A DNA stretch of 64,000 nt, taken from positions 1 to 64,000 of the forward strand of contig NZ_JAPDMV010000015.1 of assembly GCF_026319305.1 (NCBI RefSeq), written 5' to 3'. Below, one piece after another: positions 8,105 through 51,220 of this stretch (position 1 is its first letter; each line of letters begins with the position of its first letter). The stretch is from Methylophaga sp. OBS4 (GTDB lineage Bacteria; Pseudomonadota; Gammaproteobacteria; Nitrosococcales; Methylophagaceae). The notes under the pieces are model-generated. The model was not told the DNA's origin. It made no database searches and saw nothing but the letters and a program-made list of their open reading frames with translations. The translations under genes and the position numbers were made by a program.

Positions 8105-9364
8105 GTGAAATTTAAACGTACTCTGCTGGCGACCACGTTGATGACTGCCATGGCGGCAGCTCAGGCAGCAAGTCCCAGCAACGAAGAAATCTGGCAAATG
8201 CTGCAGGAAATGAAGCAGCAACTGAATGAAGTTAAAGAGCAAAACCAGGAACTGAAAGCTGAAAACCAGAACTTGAAGCAAAAGGTTGAAGAAACTGAAG
8301 TGACGGCACGCGAAGCCAGTGAAGCGGCGGAAGCTATGGCAGTCGCAACTGAGGAAGCGGTGAAAGCCGTAGCAAGTAAAGACTCCAAAACCTCAATCGG
8401 TGGTTATGGTGAACTGCATTACAACAACCTGGAAAACCAGGGCGATGCAGATGACAAAGATGAAATCGATTTCCATCGTTTTGTCTTGTTCTTTAATCAT
8501 GAGTTCAATGACCGCCTGCGTTTCTTCTCGGAGCTGGAACTGGAACACTCTCTGGCCGGTGAAGGCAAAAACGGCGAAGTTGAGATCGAACAAGCCTTTA
8601 TTCAATATGATCTGAACGACCGTCACCGCGTTAATGCGGGTCTCTTCCTGATGCCGGTCGGTCTGCTTAACGAAACGCATGAACCCCCCACGTTTTACGG
8701 TGTGGAACGTAATAATGTCGAGAAAAACATTATTCCGACCACCTGGTGGGAAGGTGGTGCAATGCTGAGCGGCGAGATTGCGCAAGGTTTCTCTTATGAT
8801 GTGGCAGCAACCTCCGGCCTGAACACCAATAGCGGTAAAAAGTATGCGGTTCGCAACGGCCGCCAGAAAGTTTCCAATGCTGAAGCGGAAGATTTTGCTT
8901 ATACTGCCCGTCTGAAATGGACCGGTATGCCGGGGGTAGAACTGAGCACTTCTCTGCAATATCAGGAAGATATCACGCAAAGCAATGACCCTGATGCCGG
9001 TAGCGCCACCTTGTGGGAAGCGCATGCAGCTATTCAAAAAGGTAACTTTGGCCTGCGCGCCTTGTACGCAACCTGGGATCTGGACGGCGACGGACCGGAA
9101 TCTGTCGGTGCTGATGAACAAACTGGTTGGTATATCGAACCGTCTTACAAGTTGACCGACAGCATTGGTATCTTTACCCGATACAGCATGTGGGATAACC
9201 AGGCGGGGAACTCTACTGATACCGAATTCAACCAGTGGGATATCGGTTTGAACTGGTGGATTGATCCGCAAGTTGTCGTTAAAGTCGACTATCAGGACAT
9301 GGATGCTGATAACAAAGACAAAGAATTTGATGGCTTCAACGTCGGTCTTGGCTATCAGTTCTGA
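8105..9364 (+). CDS. outer membrane porin with N-terminal coiled coil
   Basis: A 419-aa outer membrane beta-barrel protein. GTG start preceded by GGGGGAG. A signal peptide ends near AAAQAA (about residue 22); residues about 25-90 form a heptad-rich coiled coil (MLQEMKQQLNEVKEQNQEL), common in trimeric porins with periplasmic or peptidoglycan contacts. From about 97 (TSIGGYGELHYNN) to the terminal phenylalanine of GLGYQF the pattern is amphipathic beta strands, and the C-terminal F fits the BAM signal. It resembles phosphate/anion porin-like families. The Fur-like site upstream and the redox genes downstream suggest an iron-related solute, as inference. Confidence 0.85.
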   Translation: MKFKRTLLATTLMTAMAAAQAASPSNEEIWQMLQEMKQQLNEVKEQNQELKAENQNLKQKVEETEVTAREASEAAEAMAVATEEAVKAVASKDSKTSIGGYGELHYNNLENQGDADDKDEIDFHRFVLFFNHEFNDRLRFFSELELEHSLAGEGKNGEVEIEQAFIQYDLNDRHRVNAGLFLMPVGLLNETHEPPTFYGVERNNVEKNIIPTTWWEGGAMLSGEIAQGFSYDVAATSGLNTNSGKKYAVRNGRQKVSNAEAEDFAYTARLKWTGMPGVELSTSLQYQEDITQSNDPDAGSATLWEAHAAIQKGNFGLRALYATWDLDGDGPESVGADEQTGWYIEPSYKLTDSIGIFTRYSMWDNQAGNSTDTEFNQWDIGLNWWIDPQVVVKVDYQDMDADNKDKEFDGFNVGLGYQF

Positions 9365-9391
9365 TTTGAGTTGATATGGGGGGACGTAACG

Positions 9392-9928
9392 GTGAATAAC
9401 ATCAAGCATTGGACAGTCAGCTTTGGCCTGATCGCTTTTTTGTTGTTCATCGTTACTATTCCTGCACAAGCTCGCGGTATCTACCAGACTACGGATGAAT
9501 TTCTCAACGAGGTTTTTAACCAGCAAGTCCCTCAAAGCGATGTGGTCTGGTTAAAAGGGGAAGTGCGTGAGCGTGTGACCGAAATTTTGGGTCACAGCTA
9601 TGCCGGTTTACGGATCCGTTACTGGCATAATAATGATCGCAGCGCCTGGATTCTGGAAGAGATCGGTAAAGAAGAGCCGATCACCTTCGGCATAGTAATA
9701 CATCAAAATAAAGTCGAGCAGGTTAAGGTGCTGGCTTATCGTGAAAGTCGCGGTTGGGAAGTTCGCCATCCCGCATTTACCCGGCAATTCAGCGATGCCA
9801 AACTGGAAAATAACGGGCTGGATCGGAATATTGATGGTATTACCGGTGCAACTTTATCTGTCAGGGCTATGACTGCCGTCGTGACACTGGCATTATATCT
9901 GGATGAATTTATCAGCAATCAGAGTTAA
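9392..9928 (+). CDS. FMN-binding domain protein (periplasmic flavin carrier)
   Basis: A 178-aa exported protein. The GTG at 9392 is chosen because GGGGGG lies 9 bp upstream; a TTG at 9371 is less likely. A signal peptide or anchor covers about residues 5-28 (ending AQA). The C-terminal half is an FMN_bind domain: DGITGATLSVRAM contains the [S/T]GAT motif whose threonine receives FMN from ApbE in Nqr/Rnf-type proteins. No apbE is seen in this window. It follows the porin by 27 bp and precedes a PepSY membrane protein by 3 bp, an arrangement found in flavinylated extracytosolic electron-transfer systems. Confidence 0.85.
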   Translation: MNNIKHWTVSFGLIAFLLFIVTIPAQARGIYQTTDEFLNEVFNQQVPQSDVVWLKGEVRERVTEILGHSYAGLRIRYWHNNDRSAWILEEIGKEEPITFGIVIHQNKVEQVKVLAYRESRGWEVRHPAFTRQFSDAKLENNGLDRNIDGITGATLSVRAMTAVVTLALYLDEFISNQS

Positions 9929-9931
9929 AAA

Positions 9932-10651
9932 ATGAACCGCAGAATGCAAAGTCTGCACCGCAGTATGGGAGTAGTGGTCGCTATTTTTCTGCTGTTGTTT
10001 GCCGTAACTGGCGTGATCCTCAATCACTCCAATCAATTCAAACTTGACCAGCGTTACCTTAACTGGAACTGGCTTATGGCGCATTACGGTATCGGAGACG
10101 TCGAACCTGATGCCGCCTACCTGCTGGATAACAAGATCATTTCCCAGTTCGATACCCAGCTATTTGTTGACGCCAGGCCGGTCACCCATATTCATCGTCC
10201 GCTTCTGGGCGGTATTACCCTCGAAGACTTGATTGTGCTGGCGACCGATGATGAGCTTATTCTGCTCACCCGGGAAGGTGACTTTGTTGAACGAATGGGC
10301 GGTGAAGCCGGCATACCGGGTAGTATCCAGAATATCGGCATGCATCATGGTGAGCCGGTCATTCAGACGCACAATGGCATGTGGCGCAGCAACTTTATGC
10401 TGGATGTCTGGGAACCGATTTCATTGCTGGGCGTCACATGGAGTGTAAGCCATCCTATGCCGGAGTCTGTGGCAGCTGATTTGCAGCAATATTTCTACGG
10501 TCAGGGTGTGTCTGTTGAGCAAGTACTGATCGATATTCACAACGGCCGTATTTTGGGCAATATCGGTGTTTGGCTGGTAGATATTCTGGGCATTCTGCTG
10601 GTGGTGTTAGCGTTTACTGGTTTGTGGATGTGGGGCAGGCGACTCAAATGA
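9932..10651 (+). CDS. PepSY-associated transmembrane protein
   Basis: A 239-aa inner-membrane protein of the PepSY_TM group. TM helix at about 8-30 (VVVAIFLLLFAVTGVILNHS), a large periplasmic domain (about 35-205), and a C-terminal TM helix at about 212-233 ending in GRRLK. The LNHS at the end of the first helix and DIHNGR before the last are the conserved histidine positions of the family, possibly heme ligands. Such proteins pass electrons across the membrane in ferric reductase-like systems. Tightly linked to the FMN-binding gene, so the pair likely forms one redox module. Confidence 0.85.
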   Translation: MNRRMQSLHRSMGVVVAIFLLLFAVTGVILNHSNQFKLDQRYLNWNWLMAHYGIGDVEPDAAYLLDNKIISQFDTQLFVDARPVTHIHRPLLGGITLEDLIVLATDDELILLTREGDFVERMGGEAGIPGSIQNIGMHHGEPVIQTHNGMWRSNFMLDVWEPISLLGVTWSVSHPMPESVAADLQQYFYGQGVSVEQVLIDIHNGRILGNIGVWLVDILGILLVVLAFTGLWMWGRRLK

Positions 10652-45760: not shown

Positions 45761-46150
45761 TCAGCCGGAGAAATAGCCGATTATCAGATAGAAGATATTC
45801 AAAGCGGCCAAAGCGATGATCAGGTAAAAAGTGATTCTCATACCCAGCACGCGGCGTCTGACATTACTGTTTTTAAGTGCTGAAGCATGGAGCAGACGGC
45901 TGCTGATTAAGGTGATGCCGGCAAGATGAATCAGCCACCAGGGACCGCCGGCCCATTCCAGCAAGATCATCAGAATCAAACTGATCGGGATATATTCGGT
46001 GGCATTGCCCTGACTACGGATAGCGGCCTGTAATGCTGGCTGACCGCCATCGCCGAGCCCTACATGCAATTGTCTGCGCAGGGTAATGACATTCGAAGAC
46101 AGTTTGACGATAAGCAATGCACAGAGGCTGGTATACAAGGCAGTGATCAT
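45761..46150 (-). CDS. MAPEG family membrane protein
   Basis: A 129-aa protein with four predicted helices. The MAPEG pattern LYTSLCALLIVKLSSNVITLRRQLHVGLGDGGQPAL...RSQGNATEYIPISLILMILLE is clear: the RxxxN-E-P-like region N-A-T-E-Y-I-P fits the glutathione-linked eicosanoid family. Its start overlaps moaE's stop by 4 bp, so it is the distal gene of moaD-moaE-MAPEG. Confidence 0.88.
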   Translation of the reverse strand: MITALYTSLCALLIVKLSSNVITLRRQLHVGLGDGGQPALQAAIRSQGNATEYIPISLILMILLEWAGGPWWLIHLAGITLISSRLLHASALKNSNVRRRVLGMRITFYLIIALAALNIFYLIIGYFSG

Positions 46151-46602
46151 GATGATGTTTCTTTACTGTGCCCGTCGGTGTTTTCCTCCACCCAGCGGGC
46201 ACCATCCGGACCGAATTCCTGCTTCCAGAACGGAGCATGATATTTAAGTTCTTCTATCAGCCAGTTACAGGCATCCAGGGCGGCACGGCGGTGAGCCGAC
46301 CAGCAGCTAATAAGCACAATAGGATCGCCGGGATAAATATCACCGACCCGGTGTACGATCAGGCAATCCAGCAACGGCCATTGCGCTCTGGCCTGCTGCT
46401 CCAGCTTGTCCAGGTAACGTGCCGTCATTTGCGGATAATGCTCCAGCTTCATTTTGCTCAGATCCTGGCGGGTGCTGAAATCGCGCATGGTGCCGATAAA
46501 GCTGGCGATAGCACCAAACTGCCCCGACAGTTCGTTTGCAGACTGTTGCTGGCTAATGGTTTGCCAAGGATCAAACGGTTGCTCCGACACCCAACTGCTC
46601 AT
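46147..46602 (-). CDS. moaE: molybdopterin synthase catalytic subunit
   Basis: Catalytic subunit that inserts sulfur into cPMP to form molybdopterin. 151 aa with the MoaE signature GAIASFIGTMRDFS, MKLEHYPQMTARYLDKLEQQA, HRVGDIYPGDPIVLIS and the SAHRRAALDA lysine/arginine region, and the active-site lysine region ELKYHAPFWKQE. It forms a complex with MoaD, encoded 1 bp upstream. Confidence 0.95.
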   Translation of the reverse strand: MSSWVSEQPFDPWQTISQQQSANELSGQFGAIASFIGTMRDFSTRQDLSKMKLEHYPQMTARYLDKLEQQARAQWPLLDCLIVHRVGDIYPGDPIVLISCWSAHRRAALDACNWLIEELKYHAPFWKQEFGPDGARWVEENTDGHSKETSS

Positions 46603-46603
46603 G

Positions 46604-46831
46604 TCAACCTCCGGTTACCGGCGGGAAAAAAGCGACTTCATCACCATCATGGACCGGCGTGTCGAAATGGGCATATTCCAGATTAATGGCAACCAGCACA
46701 TTATCCGGTTTGGGTGCGTTATTGGTTGCCAGTTCCCATGCTTCGGCAGCATTGGCTGCCTGCGCCACCGCCACATGTTCCTTACCGATTTTCTCGCGCA
46801 GGCTGGCAAAAAATTTGACTTGAATACTCAT
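46604..46831 (-). CDS. moaD: molybdopterin synthase sulfur carrier subunit
   Basis: Ubiquitin-like sulfur carrier, 75 aa, ending in the functional GG of PPVTGG that is thiocarboxylated. The fold pattern SIQVKFFASLREKIG and HDGDEVAFFPPVTGG fits MoaD. It is directly upstream of moaE on the same strand and divergent from moaC. Confidence 0.95.
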   Translation of the reverse strand: MSIQVKFFASLREKIGKEHVAVAQAANAAEAWELATNNAPKPDNVLVAINLEYAHFDTPVHDGDEVAFFPPVTGG

Positions 46832-46877: not shown

Positions 46878-47354
46878 ATGTCTGAATTGACTCATTTTAA
46901 TCAAGCGGGTGAAGCACATATGGTCGATGTCGGTACTAAAGCGGTGACCGACAGGGTCGCAGTGGCGGCCGGGACGATTAAGATGTTGCCGGAAACCTTT
47001 GCCTTAATCGAACAGGGCGGACACAAAAAAGGTGATGTACTCGGCATTGCCCGGATTGCCGGTATTATGGCGGCAAAACGGACTGCTGATTTGATTCCTC
47101 TTTGTCATCCGCTGGCTTTGACCAAAGTGTCTGTCGAATTTGAGCTTGATAAAGCAACTGCAGCGGTGCATTGCCGTACCGAGGTCGGTACCAGCGGCCA
47201 GACCGGTGTGGAAATGGAAGCCTTGACTGCGGTGCAGGTAGCCTTATTAACGATTTACGATATGTGCAAGGCAGTTGATCGCGGCATGGTGATGACCGAT
47301 ATTCAACTGCTGGAAAAAGCCGGTGGTAAATCCGGTCACTGGCAGCGTTCTTAA
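46878..47354 (+). CDS. moaC: cyclic pyranopterin monophosphate synthase accessory protein
   Basis: Produces cPMP together with MoaA. 158 aa. Signature segments: [38 protein letters not shown] and [29 protein letters not shown], with the conserved catalytic Asp/Lys region [13 protein letters not shown]. moaA and moaB are not present. Convergent with the ModE/TupR-like regulator, overlapping it by 4 bp. Confidence 0.96.
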
Positions 47355-48421
47355 GCGAATATTTCCTTGAAGCTGACCAGTTCGCCGGAGCGGGAAAAGT
47401 CATAACCTGACAAACAGGCCAGCTTCTGTTGGAATGCGTCACTTTGCAGTAAAGATATAATCTCGGCAACGCGTTCATCCTCTGCCAGATCGCGTGGTAG
47501 CGCAAGGCAGTAGTGCTCCCAAACCAACGGAATAAACTCCAGGTTGAACTTGTCCGCTATCGGTGCGATACCAAATCCGGCATCAGCGGCGCCACTGGCC
47601 ACCATAGCCGCAACGGCCATATGAGTAAACTCTTCGTGTGAATAGCCTTTGATCCGGTTGACCGCGATCTGATTTTTATCCAGCAATTGATCAAGCAGCA
47701 GGCGCGTACCCGAGTCAGCTTGCCGGTTGATAAACGTCACATCATCGCGAGTCAGAGCATGGAGCTCGTCAATTTGTTTCGGATTATCTTTAGCCACCAT
47801 CAGCCCCTGATTACGTTTGACTACGTAAATAAGCTGGTGGCTGTCGGGACTGAGGATTTTGAGATAGTTGGGTGATAGCTGATGACCCAAATCACCGACC
47901 GGGATATGAAAACCGGCAATATGACATTCACCGTTTCGTAAAGCACGCAGGCTTTCCAGACTGCCATGAAAATGCAGATCGAGTTTGAAACCGGATTGTT
48001 GATTGATCAGATCCCTTAGCGCGCCGACAGCAAGACCATGGCTGGCAAAAATATTAAATCTATCGCCGTCACTATGTTCCAACACGGTTTCGAACTCGCG
48101 TTTGAACTGGGTGGCAAAATTGTCCAGCTCGGGTGAAAACGAAGCGGACAGATGACGGTGGGCATGCATCAATTTTTCACCTGCGGCTGACAGCCTGGCG
48201 CCTCGCCCACGCTCCAGAATCACCAGTGGTTGCCCAAGTATGGATTCCCATTTACCCAGCAGTCCCCAGGCAAACCGATAGGAGACACGAACCCGGTCCG
48301 TGGCTTTTTTTAATGAGCCTTCCGTTTGCACGGCTTCCAGCATTTGAAATAACACCGTGTCGATGTTGTGAGTTTCGCCGTCCTGGTTAAGTTGCCAGTG
48401 GAATTTTATTTTAATATCCAT
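47351..48421 (-). CDS. ModE-type HTH/substrate-binding-domain regulator (TupR-like)
   Basis: A 356-aa regulator from ATG 48421. The N-terminal ModE-like winged helix (about 1-105: [26 protein letters not shown] and [16 protein letters not shown]) joins a periplasmic-binding-protein-like domain (about 125-350: [28 protein letters not shown]-type motif TRLLLDQLL, and [14 protein letters not shown]). This composition is found in tungstate/molybdate-responsive regulators. It is divergent from the porin-tupA pair, and palindromes lie in between. Confidence 0.85.
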
Positions 48422-48433
48422 AATATGAATCAA

Positions 48434-48521
48434 TGTACATATTTTTTAGTAATCTAATCCCTATTAAACTGTACATGTTATTTGAAATATATGTAAGTAA
48501 TAACATATATCTCAAATTAAC
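48434..48521. promoter_or_regulatory. palindromic operator candidates upstream of porin
   Basis: TGTACAT occurs at 48434-48440 and 48470-48476. 48477-48494 and 48503-48521 form an imperfect inverted repeat (one insertion, few mismatches), whose core ATATATGT...ACATATAT resembles ModE-type TATAT/ATATA operators. Lies in the 127-bp divergent spacer between the regulator and the porin. Confidence 0.55.
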
Positions 48522-48548
48522 GATTTTAACCCTTTCAAGGAATGACCT

Positions 48549-49898
48549 ATGAAAATAAAAACAACGTTATTGGCCGCTAGTGTGGCGGCTGCTTTAAGTA
48601 CACCGGTTTATGCCGGTTCCGAAATAGAAACTTTGATCAATATGCTCCACGAAAACGGTATGGTCAGCGATGAGCAATATGGGCGTTTGAAGGCAGAGCT
48701 TGAACAGAATCAAAGTCAGGCTGCCGAGGAAAAAGCTGAGGTCGACAAGAAACTGGCCGAAGCGACCAAACCTTCCGATGTCGAAGTGGCGGTGAAAGGT
48801 GGGGTTACTGTTAAAACGCGCGACGGTAATTTCTCCACCAAAATCGGTGGCCGGCTGCAGGCTGATGCGGCGACTTATGGCGGCGATCCTGACATCGGTG
48901 ACGGTACTGAAATCCGCCGCGCCAGACTCTATGTTGAAGGCACCATGTATCGGGACTGGGGTTTTAAACTGCAATATGATTTTGCCAGCACCGGAGCCAA
49001 TGGCAAGGGCATTGCTGATGCCTATGTGGCCTACAATGGTTTTGACAATCTGCAAATCAAGGCCGGTAACTTCAAGGATCCGTTCAGCCTGCAGGAGCAG
49101 ACCAGTTCCAAGTTTGTATCCTTTAATGAGCGTGCGCTTCCCTCAGCCTTTGCGGCAGGTCGTCATATTGGCGTGATGGCGTCAACCAAACAGCAACACT
49201 GGTCGCTGGCGGCTGGCCTATTTGGTGATTCATTAACCGCTACCAATGGCAGTAGTCATGATGAGGATGAAGGCTGGGGTGCCGGTACCCGTGCTACCTG
49301 GGCGCCTGTTAATGAAAAAAACAGCGTGCTGCACGTCGGCCTGGGTTTGAATTATCGCGATACCGGCGGTGCGGGTACCACATCGTTCCGCCAACAGCCG
49401 GAAACGCATATCGGTGGAATCAATATTGTTGATACCGGCACTATCGACGCGGTGAAAGATTTTTACAAAGTCGGCGCCGAAATAGCGACTGTGCAAGGGC
49501 CTTTCTCAGCGCAGGCGGAATATATCACCACCTCGGTTAACCGTAACAGTGGCTCTGATCTGGATTTTGACGGCTGGTATGTACAAACCGGTTATTTCCT
49601 GACTGGTGAGTCACGCAACTATAAAAACGGCGCCTTTGGCGGCATTACACCAAAAGCTAATGCCGGTGAAGGTGGTATCGGTGCATGGGAGCTGGCTTTG
49701 CGATACAGCACGCTGGACTTGACCGATGCTGATATTGATGGCGGTGAAGCCGATGCGGTCACCTTGGGGGTGAACTGGTATCCGACCCCGACTTTGCGCT
49801 TCTCGGCTAACTACGTCGATGTGCTGGAAGTTGATGGCGGCACGCATGATAACGAAGAACCGACAGTATTTCAGCTGCGTAGCCAATGGGCTTTCTAA
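48549..49898 (+). CDS. OprP-like anion-selective porin
   Basis: A 449-aa outer-membrane porin of the OprO/OprP type. AAGGA lies 7 bp before the ATG. Signal peptide of 22 residues (ending VYA), a short periplasmic coiled coil (about 25-75: ETLINMLHENGMVSDEQYGRL), then a barrel starting at about 97 (NFSTKIGGRLQADAATYGG) with the arginine-containing TEIRRARLYVEGT and a terminal QWAF. OprP porins carry phosphate, but its position between a TupR-like regulator and a tungstate-binding protein points to molybdate/tungstate here. Confidence 0.85.
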   Translation: MKIKTTLLAASVAAALSTPVYAGSEIETLINMLHENGMVSDEQYGRLKAELEQNQSQAAEEKAEVDKKLAEATKPSDVEVAVKGGVTVKTRDGNFSTKIGGRLQADAATYGGDPDIGDGTEIRRARLYVEGTMYRDWGFKLQYDFASTGANGKGIADAYVAYNGFDNLQIKAGNFKDPFSLQEQTSSKFVSFNERALPSAFAAGRHIGVMASTKQQHWSLAAGLFGDSLTATNGSSHDEDEGWGAGTRATWAPVNEKNSVLHVGLGLNYRDTGGAGTTSFRQQPETHIGGINIVDTGTIDAVKDFYKVGAEIATVQGPFSAQAEYITTSVNRNSGSDLDFDGWYVQTGYFLTGESRNYKNGAFGGITPKANAGEGGIGAWELALRYSTLDLTDADIDGGEADAVTLGVNWYPTPTLRFSANYVDVLEVDGGTHDNEEPTVFQLRSQWAF

Positions 49899-49966
49899 TT
49901 ATCAAATTCCCAAGGTAATCAAATTCCAGAGTATTTCGCTAAATTATTTCCAAAAGGAATAAAGTA

Positions 49967-50776
49967 ATGAGACTAAATAGAATATTGGCGTTTTTCTTAT
50001 TTATTATGCTCAATTCCACGGCCTTTGCCGTGGAGCATCTGAAGCTTTCTACAACAACCAGTACTGATAATTCAGGACTGCTGGCGGTATTACACCCGGT
50101 ATTTGAAAAAAAATATGATGCCAAGGTTGATGTGATCGCGGTGGGGACCGGCAAGGCGTTGAAGATTGGCAGCAATGGCGATGTCGATGTAGTGTTTGTC
50201 CATGCACCGGCCGCTGAACTTAAGTATGTCGAGTCAGGCGATTTTATCGATCGCAAAGCTGTGATGCATAATGACTTTGTGATCGTGGGGCCTGAATCGG
50301 ATCCAGCTGTTATTGCTGAAGCAAATAGTGCGGTGGAAGCATTGCAGCGTATTGCCAAGGCCGAGGCTAGCTTTGTCTCACGCGGCGATGATTCCGGTAC
50401 CCATAAGAAGGAAAAAGCGTTGTGGCAGGCGGCAGCGATCAGCCCTGAAGGGAAATGGTATATCGCAGCGGGTCAGGGCATGGGCGCAGTATTGAAAATT
50501 GCCGATGAAAAACAGGCCTATGCATTGACTGATCGTGGCACCCAGATTGCCTATGCAGACAAGATGAGCTTGAAAGTCATTTTCGAAGGTGATGAGGCCT
50601 TGTTCAATCCTTATCATGTGATGGCGGTGAACCCTGAAAAACACGGCCATATCAAATATGATCTGGCAAAAAAATATATTGAATTTGTCACAGGTGAAGA
50701 GGGGCAAGCGATTATCAAAGGCTTCCAGAAAGGCGGACAACAATTGTTTTATCCTGATGCCTTAATAGCCGAATAA
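49967..50776 (+). CDS. tupA: tungstate/molybdate-type substrate-binding protein (TupA-like)
   Basis: A 269-aa periplasmic binding protein with a signal peptide ending AFA. The TupA signatures are LSTTTSTDNSGLL (oxyanion-binding TTTS) near residue 27 and SRGDDSGTHKKEKALW at about 138-153, which together bind tungstate in TupA. AAAGGA precedes the ATG. No tupB permease or tupC ATPase gene follows; the next gene is a cytochrome on the other strand. Either the partner genes are elsewhere or this protein acts with the regulator. Confidence 0.88.
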   Translation: MRLNRILAFFLFIMLNSTAFAVEHLKLSTTTSTDNSGLLAVLHPVFEKKYDAKVDVIAVGTGKALKIGSNGDVDVVFVHAPAAELKYVESGDFIDRKAVMHNDFVIVGPESDPAVIAEANSAVEALQRIAKAEASFVSRGDDSGTHKKEKALWQAAAISPEGKWYIAAGQGMGAVLKIADEKQAYALTDRGTQIAYADKMSLKVIFEGDEALFNPYHVMAVNPEKHGHIKYDLAKKYIEFVTGEEGQAIIKGFQKGGQQLFYPDALIAE

Positions 50777-50784
50777 TTGAATAA

Positions 50785-50815
50785 GCGGGTTGCCATAACG
50801 CAACCCGCCTTGTTT
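50785..50815 (+). terminator. rho-independent terminator after tupA
   Basis: A 9-bp stem GCGGGTTGC (50785-50793) / GCAACCCGC (50800-50808) with a 6-nt loop, followed by TTGTTTTTATTT. It lies between the convergent tupA and cytochrome c genes. Confidence 0.85.
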
Positions 50816-51220
50816 TTATTTGGCTTTTTTCGGTTTGACTTCACCGATGGCACCATCGGAACGGGCTTTAAGATAGCGGTAAAGCTGTTCACGACCACCG
50901 TTCATAACCTGCGGATTAGATGACCAGGCCGGCATGCTGCCTATGGTGCCGGTTTTGCCGTCAGCCACAGTCGTAAAAAATTCATCTTTGCTGATGATAG
51001 TCAGGCTTTCAGCCAGGTTAGGTCCGACCATACCCTGGCCGTAAGTGCCGTGACAGCGGGCACACCAGTTTCTATATAGTTTGAAACCCTGATAGGTTTC
51101 AGCATCCAGTTCATTGCCGTTGCTGACTTGATAGCTCTCTGCTGCCTGCATTGTCAACGGGGCGGCCAGCATTGTTGTAAGGATTAAAATGCTTAAATTA
51201 AGCGTTTTAAATGGTGACAT
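50816..51220 (-). CDS. class I cytochrome c
   Basis: A 134-aa exported protein with a signal peptide (ending MQA) and one heme c motif CARCH near residue 53, then GMVGPNLAES and SMPAWSSN, where the methionine in GTIGSMPAW is the probable axial ligand. It has a lysine-rich C-terminus. Such short cytochromes serve as electron acceptors for periplasmic dehydrogenases (for example PQQ-dependent alcohol dehydrogenases), but no partner gene is adjacent, so the pathway is not known. Confidence 0.88.
   Translation of the reverse strand: MSPFKTLNLSILILTTMLAAPLTMQAAESYQVSNGNELDAETYQGFKLYRNWCARCHGTYGQGMVGPNLAESLTIISKDEFFTTVADGKTGTIGSMPAWSSNPQVMNGGREQLYRYLKARSDGAIGEVKPKKAK

Follow-up and report, generated by a model that had tools for sequence, protein, structure and literature searches.

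The window analysed here is the 64,000-base stretch that opens contig 11 of the Methylophaga sp. OBS4 genome (the source genome, G000; 2.55 Mb, 83.6% complete), and the subject of this study is a group of three genes that lies within it beside moaCDE: a regulator gene, termed REG, an OprP-like porin gene and tupA, the gene of a TupA-like binding protein. A sequence-only reading had placed these three genes here, and all of them were borne out by profile matches. REG is divergent from the porin gene, the porin gene and tupA run in the same direction with 68 bp between them, and the gap between REG and the porin gene holds two palindromes, O1 and O2:

47351..48421, minus strand (open reading frame to 48433 if TTG is the start): REG, regulator with a LysR/ModE-type helix-turn-helix (HTH) and a TupA-like (PF12727) sensor domain
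48421..48444, no strand: O1, left palindrome of the operator pair, 11/14 half-site bases
48487..48510, no strand: O2, right palindrome, ATATATG-N10-CATATAT, 14/14 half-site bases, 38 bp 5' of the porin ATG
48549..49898, plus strand: OprP-like outer-membrane porin with an N-terminal helical segment (PF07396, 264 bits)
49967..50776, plus strand: predicted TupA-like periplasmic tungstate-binding protein (NF041772, 246.8 bits; structure 3lr1, 292 bits)

For REG, the ATG at 48421 was preferred over the TTG at 48433 as the more likely start. The regulator-porin-tupA arrangement was seen again in many relatives when the loci were compared, and because it recurs in this way it is not a product of chance or of an assembly join; the porin gene and tupA are nevertheless each kept without the other in some relatives. 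Taken together, the analyses below make it likely that the locus supplies the outer-membrane and periplasmic components of an uptake system for tungstate, and probably molybdate, whose permease, TupBC, is encoded elsewhere.

The TupA-like protein and its probable remote permease

The match of the TupA-like protein to the NCBIfam TupA model lies under the equivalog cut-off of 400, and its nearest solved structure, 3lr1, is a tungstate-binding protein. The oxyanion site of TupA has been described as TTTS, R118, T124, D170 and H59 in DaG20 numbering (PMC5517513). Across 16 TupA homologues, T30, T31, S32, R139, T145, D189 and H79, which represent most of the described residues, were invariant; the first threonine of TTTS is serine in three distant homologue rows and threonine in the window's protein. 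No other TupA-like protein was found in the source genome in a search at E 0.01, and the protein is predicted to be a tungstate-binding subunit.

As the sequence-only reading had noted, neither tupB nor tupC adjoins tupA, and the permease that it supposed to exist elsewhere was found. The source genome gave 14 ABC-permease matches, and contig 9 carries a TupB-like permease gene followed by a TupC-like ATPase gene, with metF upstream and no adjoining gene for a binding protein; the permease and the ATPase are below equivalog level (176.5 bits against a cut-off of 320 and 164.4 bits against a cut-off of 400, respectively). A complete modABC is located on contig 13, separate from this orphan tupBC.

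Among 95 genomes searched, TupA was found in 51 (E 1e-5) and TupB in 51 (E 1e-15). When the 37 genomes of the family (f1) that are at least 90% complete, a subset that excludes the source genome, were considered, tupA and tupB were both present in 27 and both absent in 9, with tupB only in one (G038), giving concordant presence in 36/37; the Fisher tests on this presence table, which also includes formate dehydrogenase (FDH), ignore phylogeny. The two genes lie on different contigs in 29 of the 39 family genomes that have both and on one contig in 10, where they are about 97-156 kb apart in nine genomes and at least 850 kb apart in one. None of the 43 tupB loci retrieved, which come from 39 genomes and in 30 cases have flanks of only 1.5 kb, contained a TupA match; tupC was present in all 43, and metF was directly upstream in 38. 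The partial exception is G054, in which a second tupA copy lies ~2.6 kb from a TupC-like ATPase gene, with no tupB match. Because tupA and tupB co-occur but never adjoin, the transporter in this family looks split, not broken. Detachment of tupBC by an assembly error, which would have spoken against the remote permease, was rejected on the evidence of G007, whose genome is a single contig, and of nine further genomes in which the separated genes share a contig. A split of modA from modBC is known in Geobacter bemidjiensis (PMC2996986). The separation of tupA from tupBC is a warning against judging transporters incomplete from one locus.

The porin and its linkage to tupA

The porin matches OprP and OprO by sequence, and the top Foldseek matches of its predicted barrel were OprO (4rjw/4rjx) and OprP (2o4v), with TM 0.72-0.79 and E 2e-30 to 4e-30. 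In a porin tree of 63 rows, for which seven of 68 matches were left out as duplicate, truncated or very distant, the window porin falls in a 38-row clade (support 100/100) made up mostly of porins of the moa/tup locus; this clade also holds one copy from elsewhere in G030 and two porin-tupA pairs (Methylococcaceae UBA975 and Cycloclasticus symbiont records). The pst-labelled, sbp-labelled and Pseudomonas porins are all outside it. The pst label was confirmed for L254, where pstB and phoU adjoin the porin, was given by eye for L256 (PstS-like neighbour) and by similarity for L250, L251 and L253, and the sbp label was confirmed for L252 and L258 and given by similarity for L263 and L264. A phosphate porin as the closest identity was rejected, as the pst-labelled rows form other, supported clades; the clustering with phosphate-linked OprP genes that would have undermined a specialised channel was thus not seen.

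Porins linked to tup genes also occur in other clades (L240/L241/L057, L244/L246, L242/L243 and L220); several of those that come from other families have long branches (L220, L057). In a class sample of 369 genomes, TupA was found in 95 and PF07396 in 103, and among the 34 genomes of other families with both, the two genes were no more than 4 kb apart in at least 8, from six families, against 0.13 expected at random.

With regard to the OprP constriction and arginine ladder, R34, R59, R60, R133 and R218 are kept in the window porin, Y62 is replaced by R and Y114 by K, R220 by Q, R222 by E and R226 by N, and R242 stands opposite a gap, the alignment of the loops being unsure. The pst-labelled relatives have R62 in 5/5 and K114 in 2/5.

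Several loci show variants of this gene order. In L220 (589-10127, Methylophilales LSUCC0135), a row of porin, tupA, tupB and tupC is transcribed away from an FDH operon composed like fds. In L132 (3357-7740, G054), genes for a TupC-like ATPase and a relative of REG (44%) are followed divergently by an Alginate_exp-family barrel (188 bits) and the second tupA, and the gap holds two weak operator-like sites (11/14) 40 bp apart. As this non-homologous barrel directly precedes tupA, another kind of outer-membrane channel occupies the same place in G054. In some genomes of the same genus (L048, L053), moaC and an inverted tupA flank tandem OprP-like porins, at which no operator site of at least 12/14 was found. 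At L252 (4587-7000) and L258 (5060-7473 and 9523-10362), the gene downstream of an OprP-like porin encodes a sulfate-binding protein (NCBIfam, 511 and 527 bits), and in L258 cysT comes further downstream; these loci may represent the equivalent, for sulfate, of the pair of porin and binding protein.

The regulator, its predicted operator and formate dehydrogenase

REG matches PF12727 (PBP_like) with 208 bits, HTH_1 with 25.5 bits (cut-off 26.6) and the ModE domain with 39 bits (cut-off 98.5). Its sensor matches the TupA profile at E 4e-6, aligned around an RxxDSGT motif, and its predicted structure (pLDDT 86.6) is similar to that of full-length LysR regulators. No molbindin family was found in REG at E 0.01, the sensor being PF12727, and a PHROGs search gave zero matches. 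The best reading of these matches is a LysR/ModE-like regulator with a TupA-like sensor.

The palindromes O1 and O2 are 66 bp apart, O1 shares one base with the likely REG start codon, namely the first of that codon, and the arms of O2 are 15 nt long and 93% complementary. O2, at porin-tupA, is the only site with no mismatch in the whole source genome, where sites with two mismatches were no more frequent than the control level; no operator was found upstream of the modA of this genome. The pair was detected in 17/19 regulator-porin gaps of TupA-containing genomes (18 relatives and the window), against at most 3/19 in shuffles; this set omits L056 (G055, with TupA and without a site), L126, whose porin is broken, and any locus lacking a divergent regulator, and with L056 the count is 17/20. 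The two gaps that fail the pair test, L082 and L130, have sites at other spacings. The pair was found in none of the seven regulator-porin gaps of TupA-less genomes. Outside the family, it occurs in family f67 (L240), 67 bp apart, and in family f29 (L244) a single site lies in the gap that separates tupB from a divergently transcribed porin. A family-wide search allowing at most one mismatch gave 50 sites against 13 for reversed-pattern controls, and 21 of the 50, read by eye, are at a regulator-porin gap, a regulator, fds or a YdeP-like molybdo-enzyme; all 8 perfect sites adjoin REG, 7 at the porin and 1 at fds. In L274 (1783-8000, G009), REG has one operator site upstream and adjoins genes for a ModA-like binding protein (280 bits), a di-haem oxidoreductase and another binding protein, with an apparent TonB receptor nearby, identified by eye.

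The predicted second target of REG, fds, is an FDH operon. The family has two main FDH groups, scoring about 780 and about 930 bits. The ~780-bit group is of the MeFDH1 type in all 24 loci of TupA-containing genomes read outside the source genome, and one such enzyme gave 1280 bits with the tungsten enzyme 7vw6 and 591 bits with a molybdenum FDH in the PDB. The ~930-bit group is fdsGBACD-like, and the one compared gave 1483 bits with the FDH 6tg9, which we take to be the molybdenum enzyme of Rhodobacter capsulatus, against 599 bits to 7vw6 or its twin. In the 37 family genomes, TupA and the ~780-bit FDH were both present in 27 and both absent in 9, with the FDH only in one; of the 28 genomes with this FDH, 21 were read as MeFDH1 type, and G051 and G053 were counted on partial matches. 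In the full presence table, the source genome is entered under the ~780-bit FDH.

An operator pair with sites 74-78 bp apart lies upstream of fdsG in 13/14 genomes with fds; in those with a clear fdsG start the near site is no more than about 20 bp from the gene, and in G007, G016 and G018 the pair lies between REG and fds. The exception is G036, a TupA-less genome whose fds has no sites. In the same genome, two operator sites 123 bp apart precede a YdeP/FdhF-family molybdo-enzyme (L273, 3544-6151; TIGR01701, 947 bits). No pair at 11/14 or better was found before MeFDH1-type operons in 22 of the 24 loci, L294 and L295 ending before the upstream region, and the pair test in the same 260-bp stretch as for fds gave 0/8 (7 MeFDH1-type loci and the FDH of the source genome). 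The operator pair at fds would account for the retention of REG in genomes that no longer have tupA, tupBC and the porin operator.

The only FDH found in the source genome is of a lone third type, 41% identical to the MeFDH1 type, and an assignment to the latter was rejected; a MeFDH1-type gene of this organism may lie in the missing part of the genome or may be absent.

Proposed mechanism, alternatives and known systems

In the mechanism that we propose, the porin would let tungstate and molybdate into the periplasm, and TupA would pass the oxyanion to the remote TupBC, which would serve the tungsten FDH. REG would bind the palindromes and sense tungstate or molybdate. In its metal-bound form it would repress the capture genes and, where encoded, the molybdenum FDH, whereas with metal-free REG the promoters would be open and the channel, TupA and, where encoded, the molybdenum FDH would be made; scarce tungsten would in this way lead REG to release the capture genes together with the molybdenum FDH. 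TupBC, behind metF and without an operator, would be steadily produced, which would place control at the outer membrane and periplasm. Somewhat short of an even chance, we suggest more tentatively that REG is a tungstate-sensing metal switch which, when tungsten is short, opens both a dedicated channel for group-6 oxyanions and, where encoded, a replacement molybdenum FDH, and that the porin belongs to a series of OprP-like channels, every one of them working with the binding protein for a single oxyanion (phosphate, sulfate or tungstate). An operator common to the porin locus and a molybdenum-type FDH would connect the isoenzyme that methylotrophs use with their supply of metal.

Several observations weigh against this mechanism. 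No operator was found upstream of tupBC in the loci scanned, so that the transporter as a whole is not co-regulated. REG and the porin persist in seven relatives that lost tupA and tupBC as well as the operator; in the computable pairs, dN/dS is about 0.02-0.03 (dS near 1 or above in most). In some TupA-containing genomes tupA directly follows moaC with no porin or regulator there. No tungstate-specific pore signature was found at OprP positions 62 and 114 or in the ladder, and this, like the seven relatives, argues against a channel system strictly specific for tungstate. The source genome, at its 83.6% completeness, yielded no fds and no MeFDH1-type FDH, and the link to fds rests on relatives. 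A looser scan of MeFDH1-type operons (560 bp, 10/14) gave a weak pair, without TATG/CATA cores, in 1/22 (L275).

Since some TupA-containing loci have tupA without a porin, the porin is dispensable, and porin and TupA are best described as partners that are not an obligate pair. The proposal that the binding protein and the porin form a capture pair used by a permease elsewhere thus survives as a module with a remote permease, but not as a fixed pair. The porin tree suggests that tupA was lost at least twice separately, and two of the seven tupA-less relatives have a broken member (REG in G022, the porin in G023).

A different direction of control is the alternative that survives best, although we regard it as rather unlikely: REG would be an activator, or a molybdate sensor, and porin-tupA and fds would be induced by metal instead of being released by tungstate scarcity. 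The resemblance of the REG model to full-length LysR regulators fits this possibility, as LysR-type regulators often activate, and in five TupA-less genomes a ModB-like gene lies no more than about 10 kb from fds. The contact of O1 with the REG start codon and the position of the near fds site, within ~20 bp of fdsG in loci with a clear start, suit repression, and for this reason REG is most simply a repressor.

A specialised role of the porin could also be denied. In that case it would be a general or phosphate-type anion channel merely sharing a promoter with tupA, with tungstate entering by ordinary diffusion, the route by which molybdate is generally thought to pass through porins (PMC8264917). 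The PF07396 fold, the OprP constriction arginines kept in the porin and its retention without tupA in seven relatives agree with such a channel. However, the porin clade is separate from pst-linked relatives present in the same family, the tupA linkage recurs in several porin clades and in six other families, and the operator is common to the porin locus and molybdo-enzyme operons, which makes the general channel improbable. The suggestion that the channel is specialised for molybdate or tungstate is accordingly supported by the recurrent PF07396-tupA linkage, the substitute barrel of G054 and the common operator, but not by the comparison with OprP, where R34, R59, R60 and R133 are kept and the constriction has no tungstate-specific change; the predicted channel probably serves molybdate as well.

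That the TupA-like protein is a periplasmic buffer or sensor, with TupBC using another binding protein, would agree with its score under the TupA cut-off and the lack of linkage to tupB in the family, but is very improbable given its co-occurrence with tupB, the absence of a second TupA-like protein in the source genome at E 0.01, the largely invariant binding-site residues and the TupB match held by 56/80 named TupA loci, which span many phyla, lie almost entirely outside the family and are in some cases incomplete.

TupABC, OprP porins and molybdenum or tungsten regulators are already known kinds. The present system has homologues of TupA, TupB and TupC and keeps the TTTS and SRGD..GT oxyanion-site residues, and it differs from TupABC in that tupA is apart from tupBC across the family, tupBC is mostly behind metF and all three are under the NCBIfam equivalog cut-offs. 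The tupR family reportedly has an excisionase-like DNA-binding domain, whereas that of REG is LysR/ModE-type. In Desulfovibrio, tupR (DVU3193) regulates tungstate uptake genes (Rajeev et al. 2019, cited in PMC10102598). The porin shares its fold and the positions R34, R59, R60 and R133 with OprP/OprO of Pseudomonas (PF07396), and differs in its location beside tupA and moa genes, in its clade, separate from that of pst-linked relatives, in having R and K for Y62 and Y114 of OprP, and in not keeping OprP R220, R226 and R242. The sensor domain of ModE is a molbindin; REG has a related HTH and a palindromic A+T-rich operator, and differs in its PF12727 sensor of periplasmic-binding-protein fold and in an operator with N10 that is paired at about 66 bp (porin) or 74-78 bp (fds). 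The ModE operator consensus of E. coli is ATCGNTATATA-N6-TATATANCGAT (PMC545781). In the moeA1-mobB-tupBCA cluster of M. extorquens, TupBCA serves a tungsten formate dehydrogenase, the MeFDH1 of this methylotroph, but tupBCA is described as contiguous there (PMC13197769). The words porin and outer membrane are absent from the main text of that paper, and no report tying a porin to tungstate or molybdate uptake was found in the portion of the open-access literature covered. As the outer-membrane passage of these oxyanions is usually ascribed to unspecific porins, a channel encoded with the binding protein, beside a regulator whose sensor is similar to that protein, offers a concrete test.

The surroundings of the three genes contain the following features:

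46878..47354, plus strand: moaC (PF01967), converging on REG, a neighbour conserved by synteny
46604-46831, minus strand: moaD (TIGR01682, 68.4 bits), divergent from moaC
46147-46602, minus strand: moaE (PF02391, 110.9 bits), divergent from moaC
50785..50808, plus strand: terminator-like hairpin after the porin-tupA pair, a 9-pair stem followed by a T-rich tail

The hairpin comes from a consensus scan only, in which the region gave 13 such hairpins against 5.3 in shuffles, and an Rfam search of the whole window gave zero matches. Elsewhere in the window, at 8105-10651, a weak PF07396 porin (64.6 bits) precedes genes for an FMN-binding-domain protein and a PepSY_TM protein, possibly an unrelated uptake or redox cluster. 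Adjoining tupA, at 50816-51220 on the minus strand, is a gene for a c-type cytochrome with a weak likeness to methanol-metabolism cytochromes (63.6 bits), and a c-type cytochrome is found at the tupA locus of several relatives too (L075, L078, L079, L115-L121).

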